Program-made: the position numbers and the translations under genes
Notes under the pieces: generated by a model
What the model was told of the DNA's origin: nothing
Seen by the model: only the letters and a program-made list of their open reading frames with translations
Database searches by the model: none
Assembly (NCBI GenBank): GCA_902796775.1
Contig: CADBQK010000128.1
Location: forward strand, 1 to 5,561
DNA: 5,561 bases
DNA from: an uncultured Lachnospiraceae bacterium
Lineage (GTDB): Bacteria; Bacillota_A; Clostridia; Lachnospirales; Lachnospiraceae
Direction: 5' to 3'
Part shown: one piece after another, positions 1 to 5,561 of the stretch
Layout of the letters: each line of letters starts with the position of its first letter
How positions within the stretch are numbered: position 1 is the first letter of the stretch

Positions 1-183
1 GCACTTCGTGAGAAACTTTTCGGAAAAGCGTCGGAAGAAACAGATGAAGTACGGAAAGGTATCCAGGAGCTCTCACTGGATGAACTGGAAATGGCGGCAG
101 GCGGGAGAGCCGAAACGCAGGTTACTGCTTCAGAAAGCCTGAATGATGAAATCTGGTTGGAACGGATGAAACGGAACTGGTAA
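1..183 (+). CDS. Double-glycine leader small protein, 3' part only
   Basis: An open frame enters from the left edge and ends at TAA 181-183, giving 60 visible residues. The start codon lies outside the window: the only in-frame ATG (91-93) falls inside the motif. Residues 24-35 read LSLDELEMAAGG, which fits the double-glycine leader consensus at every key place (L-12, S-11, E-8, L-7, small residue at -4, G-2, G-1). Such leaders are normally cut after GG by the C39 peptidase domain of an ABC exporter. The part after GG would be about 25 residues (RAETQV...RMKRNW), polar and charged, with no cysteine, so a lanthipeptide or disulfide bacteriocin is unlikely. The leader is at least 35 residues, which is long for class II bacteriocins and closer to long-leader peptide families. 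No exporter is visible. The motif could also be chance in a helical tail. It lies 101 bp before the STAS gene, with a promoter between, so it is probably a separate transcription unit. Confidence 0.6.
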   Translation, partial: ALREKLFGKASEETDEVRKGIQELSLDELEMAAGGRAETQVTASESLNDEIWLERMKRNW

Positions 184-237: not shown

Positions 238-284
238 GTCTCCAGTTATAGAAGCAGGTGTATAAAAGTTGAAAGGAGATCAGC

Positions 285-587
285 ATGACGATCCGGCAGG
301 AAAAAGACGGCAGCAGATTAGTGATTTCAGTTGAGGGGTACTTGGATGCTCTTACAGCTCCGGAACTGGAAGCTGAACTGGGAAAGGCACTAGCAGATAT
401 TGATGATCTCGTCTTTGATCTGAAGGATATGGAATATACATCTTCAGCTGGACTAAGAGTCCTGCTGGGAGCTCAGAAAGTCATGGATGAAAAAGATGGG
501 AGCATGCTCGTCAGGGGAGCCAACGAACTTGTGATGGAGATTTTCGAAGAAACCGGATTTACAAATATTCTGGATATTGAGGAATAG
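285..587 (+). CDS. STAS-domain anti-sigma factor antagonist (RsbV/SpoIIAA-like)
   Basis: The product is 100 residues, the usual size of a single STAS domain. It opens with the typical first strand and turn (LVISVEGYLDALTAPELEAE, residues 12-31). The core strand LVFDLKDMEY (42-51) leads into the phosphorylation loop TSSAGLRVLL (52-61). By alignment with SpoIIAA/RsbV (DSSGL), Ser54 is the likely phosphoacceptor, with Ser53 in the place of the usual Asp. The C-terminal ETGFTNILDI is also typical. In partner switching, unphosphorylated STAS protein binds an RsbW/SpoIIAB-type kinase and frees a sigma factor or other target, while the kinase inactivates STAS by phosphorylation. A strong Shine-Dalgarno (GAAAGGAGAT, 271-280) fixes the start. 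The PP2C phosphatase two genes downstream is the natural enzyme to reactivate it. No kinase lies in the window. The family call is firm; the target is unknown. Confidence 0.93.
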   Translation: MTIRQEKDGSRLVISVEGYLDALTAPELEAELGKALADIDDLVFDLKDMEYTSSAGLRVLLGAQKVMDEKDGSMLVRGANELVMEIFEETGFTNILDIEE

Positions 588-590
588 GAA

Positions 591-595
591 AGGAG
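591..595 (+). promoter_or_regulatory. Ribosome binding site deciding the start at 601
   Basis: AGGAG within GGAAAGGAGTG lies 5 bp before ATG 601. It overlaps the end of the STAS gene region and rules out the longer TTG start at 577, which would place the Shine-Dalgarno inside the coding region. It is the only strong ribosome binding site inside the cassette after the STAS gene. The two downstream genes appear to depend on coupling. Confidence 0.85.
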
Positions 596-600
596 TGAAA

Positions 601-843
601 ATGGATATGGAAAAATTCAAAAACAAATTAAAAGAAACGATCCCGAATGGTGTTGTTATTGATAAAGACCTTCTGGATAGAGTCGTCGGCGGTGTAGATG
701 CAGGGCTGATATCCGAATCGGCAGTCCTGGCAGAAATCCGGAATAATGGAATTGCCGGGCTCTCCAATCTGGGGGCGAACCTGATAGTCGGAGTAGCAAA
801 GCCGGACGGAACTGGTGGAGGACTGGGTTCTACTAGGAAATGA
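601..843 (+). CDS. 80-residue putative double-glycine peptide, Cys-free
   Basis: I do not recognise a named family. The protein is 80 residues. A basic, amphipathic start (MDMEKFKNKLKETI) leads to IDKDLLDRVVGG at 20-31. This resembles a double-glycine leader, with hydrophobic residues at -12 (I20), -7 (L25) and -4 (V28) and GG at 30-31, but it lacks the usual E at -8. The 49 residues after GG are small and hydrophobic (AGLISESAVLAEI, IAGLSNLGANLIVGVA), ending in a flexible tail, TGGGLGSTRK. There is no cysteine, so no lanthionine or disulfide is possible. The content suits an unmodified secreted or membrane-active peptide, or a signal peptide. It sits 13 bp after the STAS gene and overlaps the phosphatase start by 4 bp (ATGA), so it is made together with a partner switch. 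Alternatively, it is a small intracellular regulator and GG is coincidental. The gene is well supported by its ribosome binding site and tight packing; its role is inference. Confidence 0.75.
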   Translation: MDMEKFKNKLKETIPNGVVIDKDLLDRVVGGVDAGLISESAVLAEIRNNGIAGLSNLGANLIVGVAKPDGTGGGLGSTRK

Positions 844-2528
844 GAGTTTCAGAAAAAAAATACAGATCACTTCGTATAAAAGCGTTCCGTGTCATTTCGA
901 TCGGAGCGCTCCTTCTGATTATTCTGATAACGGCAATCGGGCTGGGCATACATGGTTACAGTGAACTGAAAAACTATCATGACGAATCCCGGCATCTGAT
1001 GGATTTTGCCATGTCCATGATGGATATGGAATATCTTGAAAAAATCTTCGAAGAAACAAAAGATATCTATGACAGCGTACCGGAAGAAATACGAGTTTCA
1101 CCGTTTACGGAAGAATATGAAGCGTATTTTCGGGGGCTTGTAGATGATGATTTCTTTGCGGCAAGGAATATTCTCGTCAACTGCAGAGAGAAGTCAGAAA
1201 ATCGAAATGCCTTTCTTATGTTCACAGATCCTGAAAACAGTGCCCTTGTGTTTGTTATCGATGGAGACGAATTGGACTGGGCCTATCTGCCTGGACAATG
1301 GCTGGAAGAGGATCTTAACATAGTAAGTCGAACAGAAAACTCTTCATGGCGGCTGATGATGACCAGGAGCAATGAATATGGCTGGATCGGTACGGATTTC
1401 AAAAAGATATATGCTTCTGATGGGAGCGAGCTTGGATATATCGTCATGGACGTAGACATGAATGATTTCATGAACCGGGTTTTTCATACCCTTACGATAC
1501 TGGCCCCTGCGGCCATCTTCCTGGTTCTGGTTATTGCCTACCTTGCCAGCAGATTGATGAAGCGCCATATACTTTCGCATCTGAATGAGCTCGCAAGTGC
1601 TGCAAAAACCTATATTGCGAGGGATAAAGTTGCGCAGATCAATACGGAATCGTCCTATTTTTCAGACTTGAATATCCGTACGGGGGACGAACTGGAAGAT
1701 CTCTGGAGCAGCATGACGGATATGGAAGCAGATGTCAGTGATACGATGCGCCGTCTGCAGACAATCACAGCGGAACGGGAACGTATGGACGCAGAGCTTT
1801 CCATAGCGACACAGATCCAGGTGGGAACGCTCCCTCACGACTTTCCGGCCTTTCCTGACAGAACAGAGTTTGACATTTTTGCCTCTATGATGCCAGCCAA
1901 AGAAGTTGGCGGTGATTTTTATGATTTTTTCCTGATTGATGACGATCATCTTGCTATGGTTATTGCAGATGTGTCCGGGAAAGGAATTTCGGCAGCGCTG
2001 TTTATGGTCAATGCCAAAGCACAGCTGCAAAACCAGACAATGGCAAGCGGGTGTAATGTAGTGGAAGTTTTTGATAAAGTGAACGCCCGGCTGATCGAAC
2101 AAAACGATGCCATGCTGTTTGTAACGGTTTGGCTGGGCATTTTGACCATTTCGACAGGTGATGTTGTCTATGTAAACGGGGGGCATGAATATCCGGCCAT
2201 TCGAAGAAACGGAGGCATGTTCAGCGTGGATAAGGATGTTCATTGCGGACCTCTTGCAGCACGAAAGAAGATGAAATATAAGTCCGGTGAGTTTTCCTTG
2301 AAGCCTGGAGATACAGTCTTTGTATATACGGATGGTGTCACAGAAGCCAACAACAATGAGCGGGAACTGTTTGGAAGGGAACGCCTGCTGGATGCTTTGA
2401 ATTCTGAACCGGAGGCGGATCCGATGAAACTGGATGAAAATGTCCATAAAGCGATTGCTGCATTTGTCGGTGACGCTTCTCAGTTCGATGATACAACCAT
2501 GCTTTGTCTAAAGTACTATGGCAAATAA
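840..2528 (+). CDS. Membrane sensor phosphatase: Cache-like domain, HAMP, SpoIIE/PP2C
   Basis: This 562-residue protein would dephosphorylate a STAS protein, presumably the one encoded at 285-587, in response to an external signal. Layout: basic N-terminus; TM1 about 17-38; extracytoplasmic domain about 39-215; TM2 about 216-239; HAMP about 240-295; a linker helix with the RsbU/SpoIIE-type switch motif (AELSIATQIQVGTLP, 318-332); PP2C domain about 340-562. The end of the outer domain (DGSELGYIVMDVDMNDF, 194-210) resembles the last strands of a Cache/PDC sensor. The metal-binding and catalytic signatures are all present: EVGGDFYD (D359), IADVSGKG (D377), NGGHEYP (446-452), VYTDGVTEA (D498) and FDDTTML (D550, D551). 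The enzyme therefore looks active. It starts at ATG 840 inside the stop of the peptide gene. The AGGA just before it is too close to serve as a normal ribosome binding site, so coupling is likely. The ligand is unknown; the adjacent peptide is a candidate by position only. Confidence 0.93.
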   Translation: MRVSEKKYRSLRIKAFRVISIGALLLIILITAIGLGIHGYSELKNYHDESRHLMDFAMSMMDMEYLEKIFEETKDIYDSVPEEIRVSPFTEEYEAYFRGLVDDDFFAARNILVNCREKSENRNAFLMFTDPENSALVFVIDGDELDWAYLPGQWLEEDLNIVSRTENSSWRLMMTRSNEYGWIGTDFKKIYASDGSELGYIVMDVDMNDFMNRVFHTLTILAPAAIFLVLVIAYLASRLMKRHILSHLNELASAAKTYIARDKVAQINTESSYFSDLNIRTGDELEDLWSSMTDMEADVSDTMRRLQTITAERERMDAELSIATQIQVGTLPHDFPAFPDRTEFDIFASMMPAKEVGGDFYDFFLIDDDHLAMVIADVSGKGISAALFMVNAKAQLQNQTMASGCNVVEVFDKVNARLIEQNDAMLFVTVWLGILTISTGDVVYVNGGHEYPAIRRNGGMFSVDKDVHCGPLAARKKMKYKSGEFSLKPGDTVFVYTDGVTEANNNERELFGRERLLDALNSEPEADPMKLDENVHKAIAAFVGDASQFDDTTMLCLKYYGK

Positions 2529-3441
2529 TATGGATAATGAAAAAACGATGAATAGAACAGCAATAGAAATTCTGGCTGAGACGTATTCTCAGCTTTATTT
2601 GAATCCATGCTGTGAAGGCGCGGAAGAAACATGCAAAAGAATCATACGCAGCGGTGCTTTGCCTGAAGAAAAGTCTTTGAATCACTTTATCGGAGACAGC
2701 CGCGATGTACTGTCTGTTATGGATACGCCGGCCGGGCCTGTTGAGATTCTTACTTTATATTCCCGAAAGGATTTCGAAACATTTCTTCGAATCATGGCAT
2801 TTTATTGCAGGAATGTCTGCATTCCAGAAACACAGGGAGCTAGCACTCTGATCGGTATCATAAACTGGAACAAAATTCGGAAACACAAATCAGAATATCT
2901 GAAAAAAGCTGAAACAAGCGGGAACGCTGTTCCCGACTGGCCAGAAGAGTTCAAGCGCTTTACGGGTAATAAACAGAACTATACTGATACGCTGATCGTA
3001 CTGTCTGTAGGTCCTTATAGTCAAACAAAAGCGTCCATAGCAGGTTATACCGAAGAAGAATGGCTGGTTGTTTCACAGATCATACGCACATACCATGAAT
3101 GCACGCATGTTGTCTGCAGACGGCTGTATCCTGATCAGGTGGATGCGATATGGGATGAACTGGTTGCTGACAGTATCGGTATCTACGCGGCATGCGGCGA
3201 ATTCCGGCAGGATCTCGCAGAAGCTTTCCTTGGTATACAGAATGGTCAGTATGTTGGAGGAAGGCTTAAGAATTATATAAAGAAAGATATAGATAAGCAG
3301 GAATTGGATAGGCTTGCCGGACGGATCTCCGGTGTACTGGATCAGTTCAGAAAGCTGTATAAGGATATGGAAGGCATTCCACCGCTAGACATGATCTGCC
3401 ATCTGGAATCGCATCAGAGAGTATTCTGGAAAACAGAATGA
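2518..3441 (+). CDS. Putative soluble zinc metallopeptidase (HExxH...ExxAD)
   Basis: I do not recognise a named family for this 307-residue protein. Its clear signature is HECTH at residues 193-197 (3094-3108), followed 17 residues later by DELVADSIGIY, in which E214 is placed to be the third zinc ligand. HExxH plus ExxADxxG is the gluzincin arrangement seen, for example, in M48-type peptidases. The motif lies in a helix-like hydrophobic stretch (WLVVSQIIRTYHECTHVVC), as expected for an active-site helix. There is no signal peptide or TM segment, so it should act in the cytoplasm, unlike membrane-bound M48 enzymes. Residues 1-180 match nothing I know. The start at 2518 overlaps the phosphatase end by 11 bp and has no clear ribosome binding site; ATG 2530 or 2548 are alternatives, but all imply coupling. 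Possible substrates by context are the double-glycine peptide, an anti-sigma factor or a repressor. Peptidase activity is inferred from motif only. Confidence 0.75.
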   Translation: MANNMDNEKTMNRTAIEILAETYSQLYLNPCCEGAEETCKRIIRSGALPEEKSLNHFIGDSRDVLSVMDTPAGPVEILTLYSRKDFETFLRIMAFYCRNVCIPETQGASTLIGIINWNKIRKHKSEYLKKAETSGNAVPDWPEEFKRFTGNKQNYTDTLIVLSVGPYSQTKASIAGYTEEEWLVVSQIIRTYHECTHVVCRRLYPDQVDAIWDELVADSIGIYAACGEFRQDLAEAFLGIQNGQYVGGRLKNYIKKDIDKQELDRLAGRISGVLDQFRKLYKDMEGIPPLDMICHLESHQRVFWKTE

Positions 3442-3734: not shown

Positions 3735-4853
3735 ATGAAATATGATTATCTGATAGTTGGGGCTGGATTGTACGGGAGTGTCTTTGCATATGAAGCGAAG
3801 AAGGCTGGAAAGAGCGTGCTGGTAGTTGATAAACGTCCGAATATAGCGGGAAATGTGTATACGAAGGAAGTGGAAGGAATCCAGGTCCATGAATATGGAG
3901 CTCATATTTTCCATACGAATCTGAAGCATGTCTGGGAGTTTGTGCAGCAATTTGCCGAGTTCAACCGGTTTACCAATTCCCCGGTGGCCAACTATAAAGG
4001 GGAGCTGTATTCTCTTCCTTTTAACATGTATACATTCAATAAGATGTGGGGTGTAGTAACACCGGAAGAAGCTGCAGCCCGGATAGAAGAGCAGAAGACT
4101 GCTGCCGGAATCACGGAACCAAAGAACTTAGAAGAACAGGCAATTTCCCTCGTGGGTACTGATATCTATGAAAAACTGGTAAAAGGATATACTGAAAAGC
4201 AGTGGGGTCGGGATTGTTCGGACCTTCCGGCTTTTATTATTAAACGCCTGCCGGTGCGGTTTACCTTTGATAATAATTATTTCAATGCGTTGTACCAGGG
4301 GATTCCTATGGGCGGTTATACCAAGATGGTCGCTAATATGCTGGATGGCATTGAGGTTCGGCTGAATACGGATTATCTGGAACAGAAAGAGGAACTCGAT
4401 GCTTTGTCAGACAAGGTTGTATATACTGGGCCGATCGACGCATATTTCCACTATGTGCTGGGAACGCTGGAATACCGATCTGTTCGCTTTGAGACAGAAC
4501 TTCTGGATACGCCTAATTTTCAGGGTAATGCTGCAGTGAACTATACGGACAGGGAAACTCCATGGACCCGCATCATCGAGCACAAATGGTTTGAATTCGG
4601 TAAGGATGCCGCAGGAAATGATCTTCCAAAAACCGTGATATCAAGAGAGTATTCTTCTGAGTGGAAGCCGGGAGATGAGCCGTACTATCCTGTAAACGAT
4701 GAAAAGAATGGGGCGCTTTACGAAGAGTACAGAGCGCTGGCTGAAAAAGAAGAGAAGATCATCTTCGGAGGACGGCTGGGAGAATACAAATACTATGATA
4801 TGGATGCTGTGATCGCAGCTGCTCTGGAAATGTGTAAAAAAGAGCTGAAATAA
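3735..4853 (+). CDS. glf: UDP-galactopyranose mutase
   Basis: The enzyme converts UDP-galactopyranose to UDP-galactofuranose using reduced FAD as a nucleophile, supplying galactofuranose for surface polysaccharides. At 372 residues it is the normal length for bacterial forms. The N-terminus has the FAD-binding Rossmann motif GAGLYG (9-14), then VVDKRPNIAGN (30-40) and the typical EYGAHIFHT (53-61). The substrate region follows: KGYTEKQWG (150-158, with the conserved Trp157), RLPVRFTFDNNYF (171-183) and GIPMGGYT (189-196). The C-terminal part has VVYTGPIDAYF (228-238), WTRIIEHKWFE (277-287) and the signature GGRLGEYKYYDMD (345-357). The start is set by AAAGAGGAG (3719-3727), 7 bp upstream. It is soluble, with no signal peptide. 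No glycosyltransferase or polysaccharide exporter lies in the window, so it stands apart from a visible galactan locus. Identification is firm. Confidence 0.97.
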   Translation: MKYDYLIVGAGLYGSVFAYEAKKAGKSVLVVDKRPNIAGNVYTKEVEGIQVHEYGAHIFHTNLKHVWEFVQQFAEFNRFTNSPVANYKGELYSLPFNMYTFNKMWGVVTPEEAAARIEEQKTAAGITEPKNLEEQAISLVGTDIYEKLVKGYTEKQWGRDCSDLPAFIIKRLPVRFTFDNNYFNALYQGIPMGGYTKMVANMLDGIEVRLNTDYLEQKEELDALSDKVVYTGPIDAYFHYVLGTLEYRSVRFETELLDTPNFQGNAAVNYTDRETPWTRIIEHKWFEFGKDAAGNDLPKTVISREYSSEWKPGDEPYYPVNDEKNGALYEEYRALAEKEEKIIFGGRLGEYKYYDMDAVIAAALEMCKKELK

Positions 4854-4932: not shown

Positions 4933-5561
4933 ATGACAACAGCACAGATTGGTATACTGATCGTAATGATCGTCTATATGCTGGCTATCGTCATGGTGGG
5001 ATTTGCTTTCTCAAAAAAGAATGACTCCGTTGGAAATTTCTACCTTGGCGGCCGTAAACTCGGCCCGTTTGTTACAGCCATGAGCGCAGAAGCATCTGAT
5101 ATGAGCAGCTATCTGCTCATGGGACTGCCCGGTCTTGCTTATCTGACCGGCCTGGCTGATGTAGGCTGGACGGCTATTGGACTGGCGGTGGGGACATATT
5201 TGAACTGGCTTTTCGTTGCCAGAAAGCTGCGACGTTATACGGCGCGGACCGGTTCAATTACGGTACCTGATTTCTTTTCGGATCGGTATGGAGATGACAG
5301 ACGAATTCTGATGCTTATAGGTGCCCTTGTTATCATCGTGTTTTTCATTCCGTATACGGGCTCTGGATTCGCTGCCTGTGGAAAACTGTTCTCGAGTTTG
5401 TTCGGTGTCAGTTATCATGGTGCTATGATCGTCAGCGCAATCGTAATTATCGTATACACAATGCTGGGGGGGTTCCTGGCAGTCAGTACTACTGACTTTA
5501 TTCAAAGCATCATCATGACAGTTGCACTGTTTATCGTACTTGGATTCGGCATACATATGGC
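4933..5561 (+). CDS. putP: Sodium/proline symporter (PutP-like), 5' part
   Basis: The frame is open from ATG 4933 to the right edge, giving 209 residues of a protein that is usually about 500. It belongs to the sodium:solute symporter family, which imports solutes with Na+. The match is closest to PutP: FYLGGRKLGPFVTAMSA (36-52), ASDMSSYLLMGLPG (54-67) and YTMLGGFLAVSTTDFIQ (176-192) follow the E. coli protein closely as I remember it. Asp56 and Ser58 match the PutP positions Asp55 and Ser57, which act in Na+ and proline binding. E53 replaces the Gly in the E. coli sequence SAGASD. Hydrophobic segments at about 5-25, 58-80, 113-135 and 156-180, and one at the cut end, fit membrane helices. 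AGAGG (4922-4926), 6 bp before ATG, supports the start, and a dedicated promoter precedes it. Proline specificity is inferred from these motifs; another SSS substrate cannot be excluded from the fragment. Confidence 0.9.
   Translation, partial: MTTAQIGILIVMIVYMLAIVMVGFAFSKKNDSVGNFYLGGRKLGPFVTAMSAEASDMSSYLLMGLPGLAYLTGLADVGWTAIGLAVGTYLNWLFVARKLRRYTARTGSITVPDFFSDRYGDDRRILMLIGALVIIVFFIPYTGSGFAACGKLFSSLFGVSYHGAMIVSAIVIIVYTMLGGFLAVSTTDFIQSIIMTVALFIVLGFGIHM

Follow-up and report, generated by a model that had tools for sequence, protein, structure and literature searches.

A double-glycine leader peptide gene paired with a membrane PP2C phosphatase, flanked by STAS and DUF7005 genes, in an uncultured Lachnospiraceae bacterium

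Results

A compact block of STAS, peptide, PP2C, and DUF7005 genes

We analyzed a 5,561-nucleotide stretch of DNA from an uncultured Lachnospiraceae bacterium (assembly GCA_902796775.1, contig CADBQK010000128.1, forward strand), referred to here in its full length as the window. It carries four tightly packed genes on one strand (Table 1), encoding a STAS-domain protein, a small peptide with a double-glycine (GG) leader, a membrane PP2C phosphatase, and an HExxH protein of the Pfam family DUF7005. A check of the open reading frames (ORFs) reproduced exactly the layout and the junctions of +13, -4, and -11 bp described in an earlier prediction made from the sequence alone (the original prediction); the last junction would become +1 if the DUF7005 gene began at the next ATG (2530), as does its database twin P0001. 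Two sub-units of this block recur in other genomes: the GG-leader peptide gene with the sensor PP2C gene, and DUF7005 near genes for GG peptides, extracytoplasmic function (ECF) sigma factors, and partner switching.

Profile searches bore out the protein identities proposed earlier. The STAS protein scored above the cut-offs of PF01740 (52 bits, cut-off 22.6) and TIGR00377 (66.8 bits, cut-off 53.45) and is not a SpoIIAA equivalog (TIGR02886, 49.4 versus 114.75 bits). The phosphatase has the PP2C fold and matched the SpoIIE family PF07228 above cut-off (146.6 bits), yet it is not a SpoIIE equivalog (TIGR02865, 40.5 versus 490.8 bits). Nor is it SiaA, a biofilm regulation phosphatase that likewise joins a membrane sensor to PP2C (NF038263, 59.5 versus 700 bits); SiaA is not known to have an associated GG-peptide gene. 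Hydrophobic stretches, as read from the sequence, place one helix at about residues 18–42, a sensor region at 43–215, and a second helix at 216–240, and the structural model shows helices H11–60 and H208–262. No Pfam family matched the sensor region. Among aligned relatives Asp359 and Asp377 are invariant, and Asp498, Asp550, and Asp551 are kept in at least 90%. The HExxH protein scored 163.1 bits against PF22541 (gathering threshold 27), its sole Pfam match above cut-off.

The small peptide gene is conserved as a protein

The leader of the 80-aa peptide comprises residues 1–31 and ends in ...DKDLLDRVVGG, with the GG pair following hydrophobic positions and kept in relatives. The predicted mature part (residues 32–80; 694–840) has the C-terminal end AKPDGTGGGLGSTRK, and the peptide contains no cysteine. 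Neither Pfam nor NCBIfam gave a match for it at E ≤1, and no Nif11 or nitrile hydratase leader peptide (NHLP) profile was hit. A protein search returned three relatives (P0121–P0123, 66–99% identity). When these are aligned with the window peptide, invariant columns number 24 of 31 in the leader and 27 of 49 in the core, where the variation lies mostly in the middle and leaves two conserved blocks. The C-terminus in the window (AKPDGTGGGLG..) is echoed in the G087 group by AKPYPGGLG...

Between the related loci L174 and L175 the peptide gene is under strong purifying selection: nonsynonymous divergence (dN) is 0.03 and synonymous divergence (dS) 0.57 (dN/dS ∼0.05), with similarly few changes in core and leader. 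The corresponding values for L141 against L174 are 0.13 and 1.6. The small ORF is a real gene, conserved as a protein and linked to PP2C, in line with the original prediction.

The peptide gene is paired with one group of PP2C genes

We used the sensor half of the PP2C (314 aa) as a query against overlapping genome draws at four taxonomic levels: one family (397 genomes), one genus (5), the order (392), and the class (391). Nine loci outside the window scored 191–407 bits, and the next best scored 126. A GG-leader ORF lies within 80 bp of the PP2C gene in 10/10 loci scoring at least 191 bits (the window and these nine), versus 0/41 lower-scoring loci (at most 126 bits, not picked via DUF7005). 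The 41 comprise 37 of the further loci in our main comparison and four more, some with short flanks (minimum 78 bp on one side). The main comparison held 48 further PP2C loci with at most 31% identity or short alignments, 11 of them picked via DUF7005; genuine GG ORFs occur in two of these 11 (L004 and L058).

The ten pairs represent about seven lineages and are not independent events. Identity of the paired PP2C to that of the window is 53–56% in L141/L093, L174, and L175 (one genus), 47% in L176, 40% in L142/L094, 36% in L178 and L177, 35% in L179, and 33% in L180. The boundary between paired and other PP2Cs was set after the data had been seen. It falls in a wide gap in bit score (191 versus 126), but in terms of identity its position varies with how the alignment was made: L098, with no GG ORF, stands at 34% or 31%, and L180, with a GG ORF, at 33%. 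Our GG pattern caught nine of the ten paired peptides, that of L178 being recognized by eye; one form of the pattern missed L011, and false ORFs in L026 and L103 were set aside by eye, the match at L103 (among the 37) being a STAS gene. One of the 41 unpaired PP2Cs is the second PP2C of L142, directly after a paired one.

In eight loci the peptide gene is directly upstream of the PP2C gene, at spacings of 21, 74, 48, 22, and 3 bp (coordinate differences) or overlapping it (L174, L175, and the window). The other two members of the block are not constant partners of the pair. No STAS gene occurs within 3 kb at any of the nine other loci; in L176 one opens the gene run that contains the pair, 5.7 kb upstream, and in L179 one is 8.6 kb away. 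Close proximity of STAS to the pair is thus confined to the window, and L176 alone has it at a distance in the same run. DUF7005 is absent from the DNA examined at all nine. The order STAS/peptide/PP2C/HExxH, whose conservation the original prediction had named as support for a system, was found nowhere else. We therefore reject a fixed four-gene system, as the order is not conserved and only sub-units recur; what survives of the idea of the cassette as a system is the peptide-PP2C pair and the recurrence of DUF7005 near GG and switch genes.

Two pair loci have further features. In L142 (3918–10387), behind the GG peptide and sensor PP2C, come genes for another PP2C (755 aa) and for an AAA ATPase (733 aa), the latter matching IteA-type and proteasome-activating models under cut-off. 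In L177 (10685–11169) the PP2C gene is faced by a tandem of two GG peptides whose C-termini are related (KPMGPKSNPGKND and APKNSPGGND).

Peptide exporters in genomes with the pair

A C39 peptidase domain above cut-off is encoded in 7/7 genomes with the pair versus 4/7 comparison genomes. The most complete export-plus-switch locus seen is L176 (2709–10703), where genes for STAS, a partial NHLP HlyD, the NHLP ATP-binding cassette (ABC) proteins ABC1 (TIGR03796, 898 bits) and ABC2 (TIGR03797, 727 bits), two GG peptides, the PP2C, and a third GG ORF (67 aa) follow one another on one strand. Reading of 12 exporter neighborhoods in pair genomes revealed gene pairs of ABC1-ABC2 size, and in G087, G403, and G404 a GG peptide adjoins the exporter pair.

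DUF7005 lies near GG-peptide, ECF, and switch genes

The DUF7005 structural model has a predicted local distance difference test score (pLDDT) of 94.7, and neither a signal peptide nor a membrane helix was seen on reading the sequence. His193, Glu194, His197, Asp213, Glu214, and Asp218 are invariant in 45/45 aligned DUF7005 proteins; an HExxH motif followed by ExxxD, which this family has, is the gluzincin peptidase layout. A sequence search of solved structures gave a best hit of only E 0.55, and fold searches gave no convincing match, which is not equal to a new fold. Searches of viral contigs gave 22 pattern matches, none confirmed.

Of the 397 family genomes, 14 carry DUF7005. Scanning the genome collection confirmed 165 loci; we retained the 80 best, added eight, and removed two duplicates, which left 86 for analysis (L145, L150, L152, L153, L154, and L157 were left out). 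The STAS genes of L048, L060, L058, L072, and L176 and several ECF genes were found only by direct ORF search, because the gene caller masked small genes beneath antisense ORFs.

GG-leader ORFs thin out with distance from DUF7005, from 1.7 per 10 kb in the first 500 bp to 0.2–0.3 past 4 kb, and 20/86 loci have one within 2 kb (including a seemingly spurious one in L026). An ECF sigma gene occurs within 1 kb in 12/86 loci; at E 1e-4 there is none past 4 kb, a weaker match lies 4.8 kb away in L051, and four ECF proteins were domain-checked. NHLP ABC genes occur within 6 kb in 17/86 loci, with no clear distance fall-off. At least one of the four features (GG, NHLP ABC, ECF, and partner-switch genes) is found within 3 kb in 40/86 loci, and at least two kinds in 15. 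Across the 91 DUF7005 flanks at least 9 kb long, which are not independent, 32 have a feature at 0–3 kb versus 10 at 6–9 kb (Fisher p 0.00017); the respective counts are 10 versus 2 for GG, 9 versus 0 for ECF, and 13 versus 3 for switch genes.

Several layouts resemble the window. L058 has GG-GG-ECF-PP2C-HATPase-STAS-DUF7005 in one run, L004 has HATPase-GG-PP2C-GG-DUF7005, L048 and L060 have DUF7005-STAS-GG, and L072 has PP2C-HATPase-STAS...DUF7005-PP2C-ABC1-ABC2. In L143, PP2C-HATPase-ECF-DUF7005 is followed by five GG peptides and then by methyltransferase-like, YcaO, radical-SAM-like, and C39 transporter genes. Thus, the gene set of the window largely recurs, while its order does not.

Some DUF7005 loci are of interest in themselves. 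L143 (1–13536) is a cluster of the type that makes ribosomally synthesized and post-translationally modified peptides (RiPPs): its five GG peptides are Nif11-like, a sixth is short, and one of its two YcaO-like genes, the one tested, scored 133 bits against TIGR00702 (cut-off 75.65). A simpler peptide-export locus, ABC1-ABC2-DUF7005-ECF sigma, is seen in L021, L046, L053, and L054, and similarly in L064 with added GG peptides. In the partner-switch/GG-peptide neighborhood of L004 a gene at 4831–6486 encodes a glutamate/dicarboxylate symporter (GltP-like at residues 137–550) whose additional N-terminal ∼130 residues resemble an anti-sigma HATPase by eye.

Proposed mechanism and alternatives

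As the best explanation of the whole we tentatively favor a peptide-receptor pair with a STAS relay and peptide handling by DUF7005, and we regard it as somewhat short of probable. The 80-aa peptide would leave the cell through a C39-type (NHLP/PCAT) transporter whose gene lies elsewhere and which would cleave it after Gly31. The membrane PP2C encoded by the overlapping gene would then detect the mature peptide, or its level, with its extracytoplasmic domain. The activated PP2C would dephosphorylate the neighboring STAS protein, which would then bind a HATPase anti-sigma kinase encoded outside the window, freeing a sigma factor. DUF7005 would be a metalloenzyme of the cytoplasm that has been recruited to loci with GG peptides; most probably it would act as a peptidase in the processing or clearance of GG-leader precursors or of leaders already cut off.

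ComC/ComD and BlpC/BlpH are GG-leader pheromone systems (ComC is PF03047). As in these systems, a GG-leader peptide gene here adjoins a gene for a membrane receptor (a putative role) at all ten loci, with a C39 exporter in the genome; the peptide of L179 gives a weak, sub-threshold ComC hit (E 0.064). The candidate receptor, in contrast, is a PP2C phosphatase rather than a histidine kinase, and the ligand role is putative. The pair may work like ComC/ComD, but it is no member of that group because its receptor is not a histidine kinase. From RsbV/RsbU and SpoIIAA/SpoIIE the window differs in that its proteins fall below the SpoIIAA and SpoIIE NCBIfam cut-offs, a GG-leader peptide is linked, and no kinase is present. 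NHLP/NHLM export with Nif11 or nitrile-hydratase leaders shares the combination of C39 ABC1, ABC2, and GG peptides (excerpts of PMC2887384), which is found around some DUF7005 genes and one PP2C pair (L176), whereas no model of either Pfam or NCBIfam fits the window peptide. A word search of the main text of PMC2887384 found none of the terms phosphatase, sigma, STAS, and HEXXH. Leader-removing metalloproteases of RiPP pathways, among which an excerpt of PMC10885120 places M1, M16, M50, M61, and M103, exemplify the metal-dependent peptide processing proposed here for DUF7005, which itself matched only PF22541 above cut-off. In the open-licence literature we found no paper on DUF7005 or on the topics SpoIIE/double-glycine peptide, PP2C/Nif11/RiPP, and antagonist/RiPP cluster, and, among the records listed, no title or abstract opening that describes the GG-peptide/PP2C pair; a word search for phosphatase in the searchable parts of PMC6363468 and PMC13289728 was likewise negative.

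Several observations weigh against this mechanism. Outside one genus-level group the resemblance between the peptides, judged by eye, is limited to the GG leader and a C-terminus rich in Pro, Gly, and Lys. At two of the ten pair loci (L177 and L178) the peptide gene lies downstream of the PP2C gene and points toward it, and the two are not in one operon. C39 domains are common (8/14 well-known control genomes), and the presence of exporters therefore lends only weak support. DUF7005 occurs in only 1/7 genomes with the pair, there on another contig; being absent from 6/7, it is no general part of the mechanism, and at the level of orthologs the phosphatase and the metallopeptidase mostly occur apart, an outcome that the original prediction had named as counting against a joint system. 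Finally, 46/86 DUF7005 loci lack all four features within 3 kb, and NHLP ABC genes, taken by themselves, are not enriched close by (5 versus 6 of 91 flanks at 0–3 and 6–9 kb).

One competitor, possible although on balance unlikely, casts the peptide as a bacteriocin or RiPP precursor and not as a ligand, with PP2C and STAS only controlling its production or a corresponding immunity response upon an environmental cue. The RiPP-type cluster at L143 shows that some GG peptides near DUF7005 have such a setting, the core is less conserved than the leader in the closest relatives, and a second GG peptide encoded at the 5' end of the window could be such a product. The window peptide itself, however, lacks cysteine and a Pfam or NCBIfam family, its core has two conserved blocks, core and leader change to about the same small extent between L174 and L175, and no modification enzyme was recognized at the ten pairs, where most neighbors were read only and not domain-searched. 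A second alternative concerns the HExxH protein alone, which might be an iron-dependent peptide-modifying enzyme and not a peptidase; we think this about equally unlikely. Against it, the HExxH motif with a later ExxxD is the gluzincin peptidase arrangement, and no NCBIfam family was matched at E ≤1. Less likely still, the peptide would never be exported and would regulate the PP2C from the cytoplasmic side as a small subunit, for instance at the coiled coil or at STAS, and the GG would be a remnant or coincidence. The peptide gene overlaps or closely adjoins the PP2C gene in 8/10 loci, and the activation of RsbU by its protein partner RsbT offers a precedent (excerpt of PMC12143880); against this, the GG-leader signature is kept in 10/10 loci despite divergence elsewhere in the peptide, one pair stands in a run with NHLP export genes (L176), and, more weakly, every pair genome encodes an exporter. 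An ordinary RsbV/RsbU-type stress module beside unrelated genes that abut by chance is already disfavored and very improbable: STAS and PP2C are commonly paired, and in L096, L098, L099, L101, L103, L105, and L118 a STAS gene lies within 450 bp upstream of a PP2C gene with no GG peptide, but the 10/10 versus 0/41 linkage, the overlapping frames, and the conservation in other genomes argue against chance abutment.

We consider doubtful the broader claim of peptide communication in which a membrane PP2C is dedicated to sensing a GG-leader autoinducer and a partner switch relays the signal to a sigma factor, with DUF7005 as a GG-peptide-processing family. If true, it would extend GG-peptide signaling past histidine kinases, make DUF7005 a new metalloenzyme family of peptide-export loci, and provide a communication route for rumen and gut Lachnospiraceae. 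To our knowledge the sensing input of membrane SpoIIE-type phosphatases is mostly unknown, and a conserved peptide gene tied to such a receptor is a named, directly testable candidate ligand. DUF7005, for its part, gains a likely setting in GG-peptide/export loci under ECF or partner-switch control.

Expression signals and other features of the window

Table 1. Features of the 5,561-nucleotide window.
Feature	Position	Strand	Basis
C-terminal part of upstream GG-leader peptide gene, 5' end outside window	1..183	+	Open ORF, leader-like LSLDELEMAAGG
Ribosome-binding site AAGGAG, STAS gene	273..278	+	Reading of sequence
STAS anti-sigma-factor antagonist, SpoIIAA/RsbV type, 100 aa	285..587	+	PF01740, TIGR00377 over cut-off
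Ribosome-binding site AAGGAG, peptide gene	590..595	+	Reading of sequence
GG-leader small peptide gene, 80 aa	601..843	+	Homologues P0121–P0123, GG ORFs at related PP2Cs, purifying selection
Membrane sensor PP2C (SpoIIE-type) phosphatase, 562 aa	840..2528	+	PF07228
Two membrane helices around predicted extracytoplasmic sensor region	891..1559	+	Hydrophobic stretches, model helices
DUF7005 metalloenzyme, putative peptidase, 307 aa	2518..3441	+	PF22541, model
HExxH motif (H193 E194 x x H197)	3094..3108	+	Invariant in 45/45 aligned proteins
D213-E214-x-x-x-D218, likely third metal ligand in ExxxD motif	3154..3171	+	Invariant in 45/45

The original prediction placed the block behind one promoter. 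Our scan found no passing promoter-like site 5' of position 285, and the nine sites across the window compare with 10.0 expected from shuffled sequence. By reading, neither the PP2C gene nor the DUF7005 gene has a ribosome-binding site at normal spacing, which would fit translational coupling. An Rfam scan gave no match above gathering score. No PADLOC family matched any of the four block proteins at E 0.01, and an anti-phage role was rejected on this ground.

A second GG-leader peptide gene, absent from the original prediction, is located just 5' of the STAS gene and matches PF04604 under threshold (E 0.0076). A similar short-tailed GG ORF lies immediately 5' of DUF7005 in L071, a likeness seen by eye and unsupported by phmmer (no matches). 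Downstream of the block are genes for a UDP-galactopyranose mutase (3735–4853) and a sodium:solute symporter (4933–5561, cut by the window end), both apparently unrelated to it.

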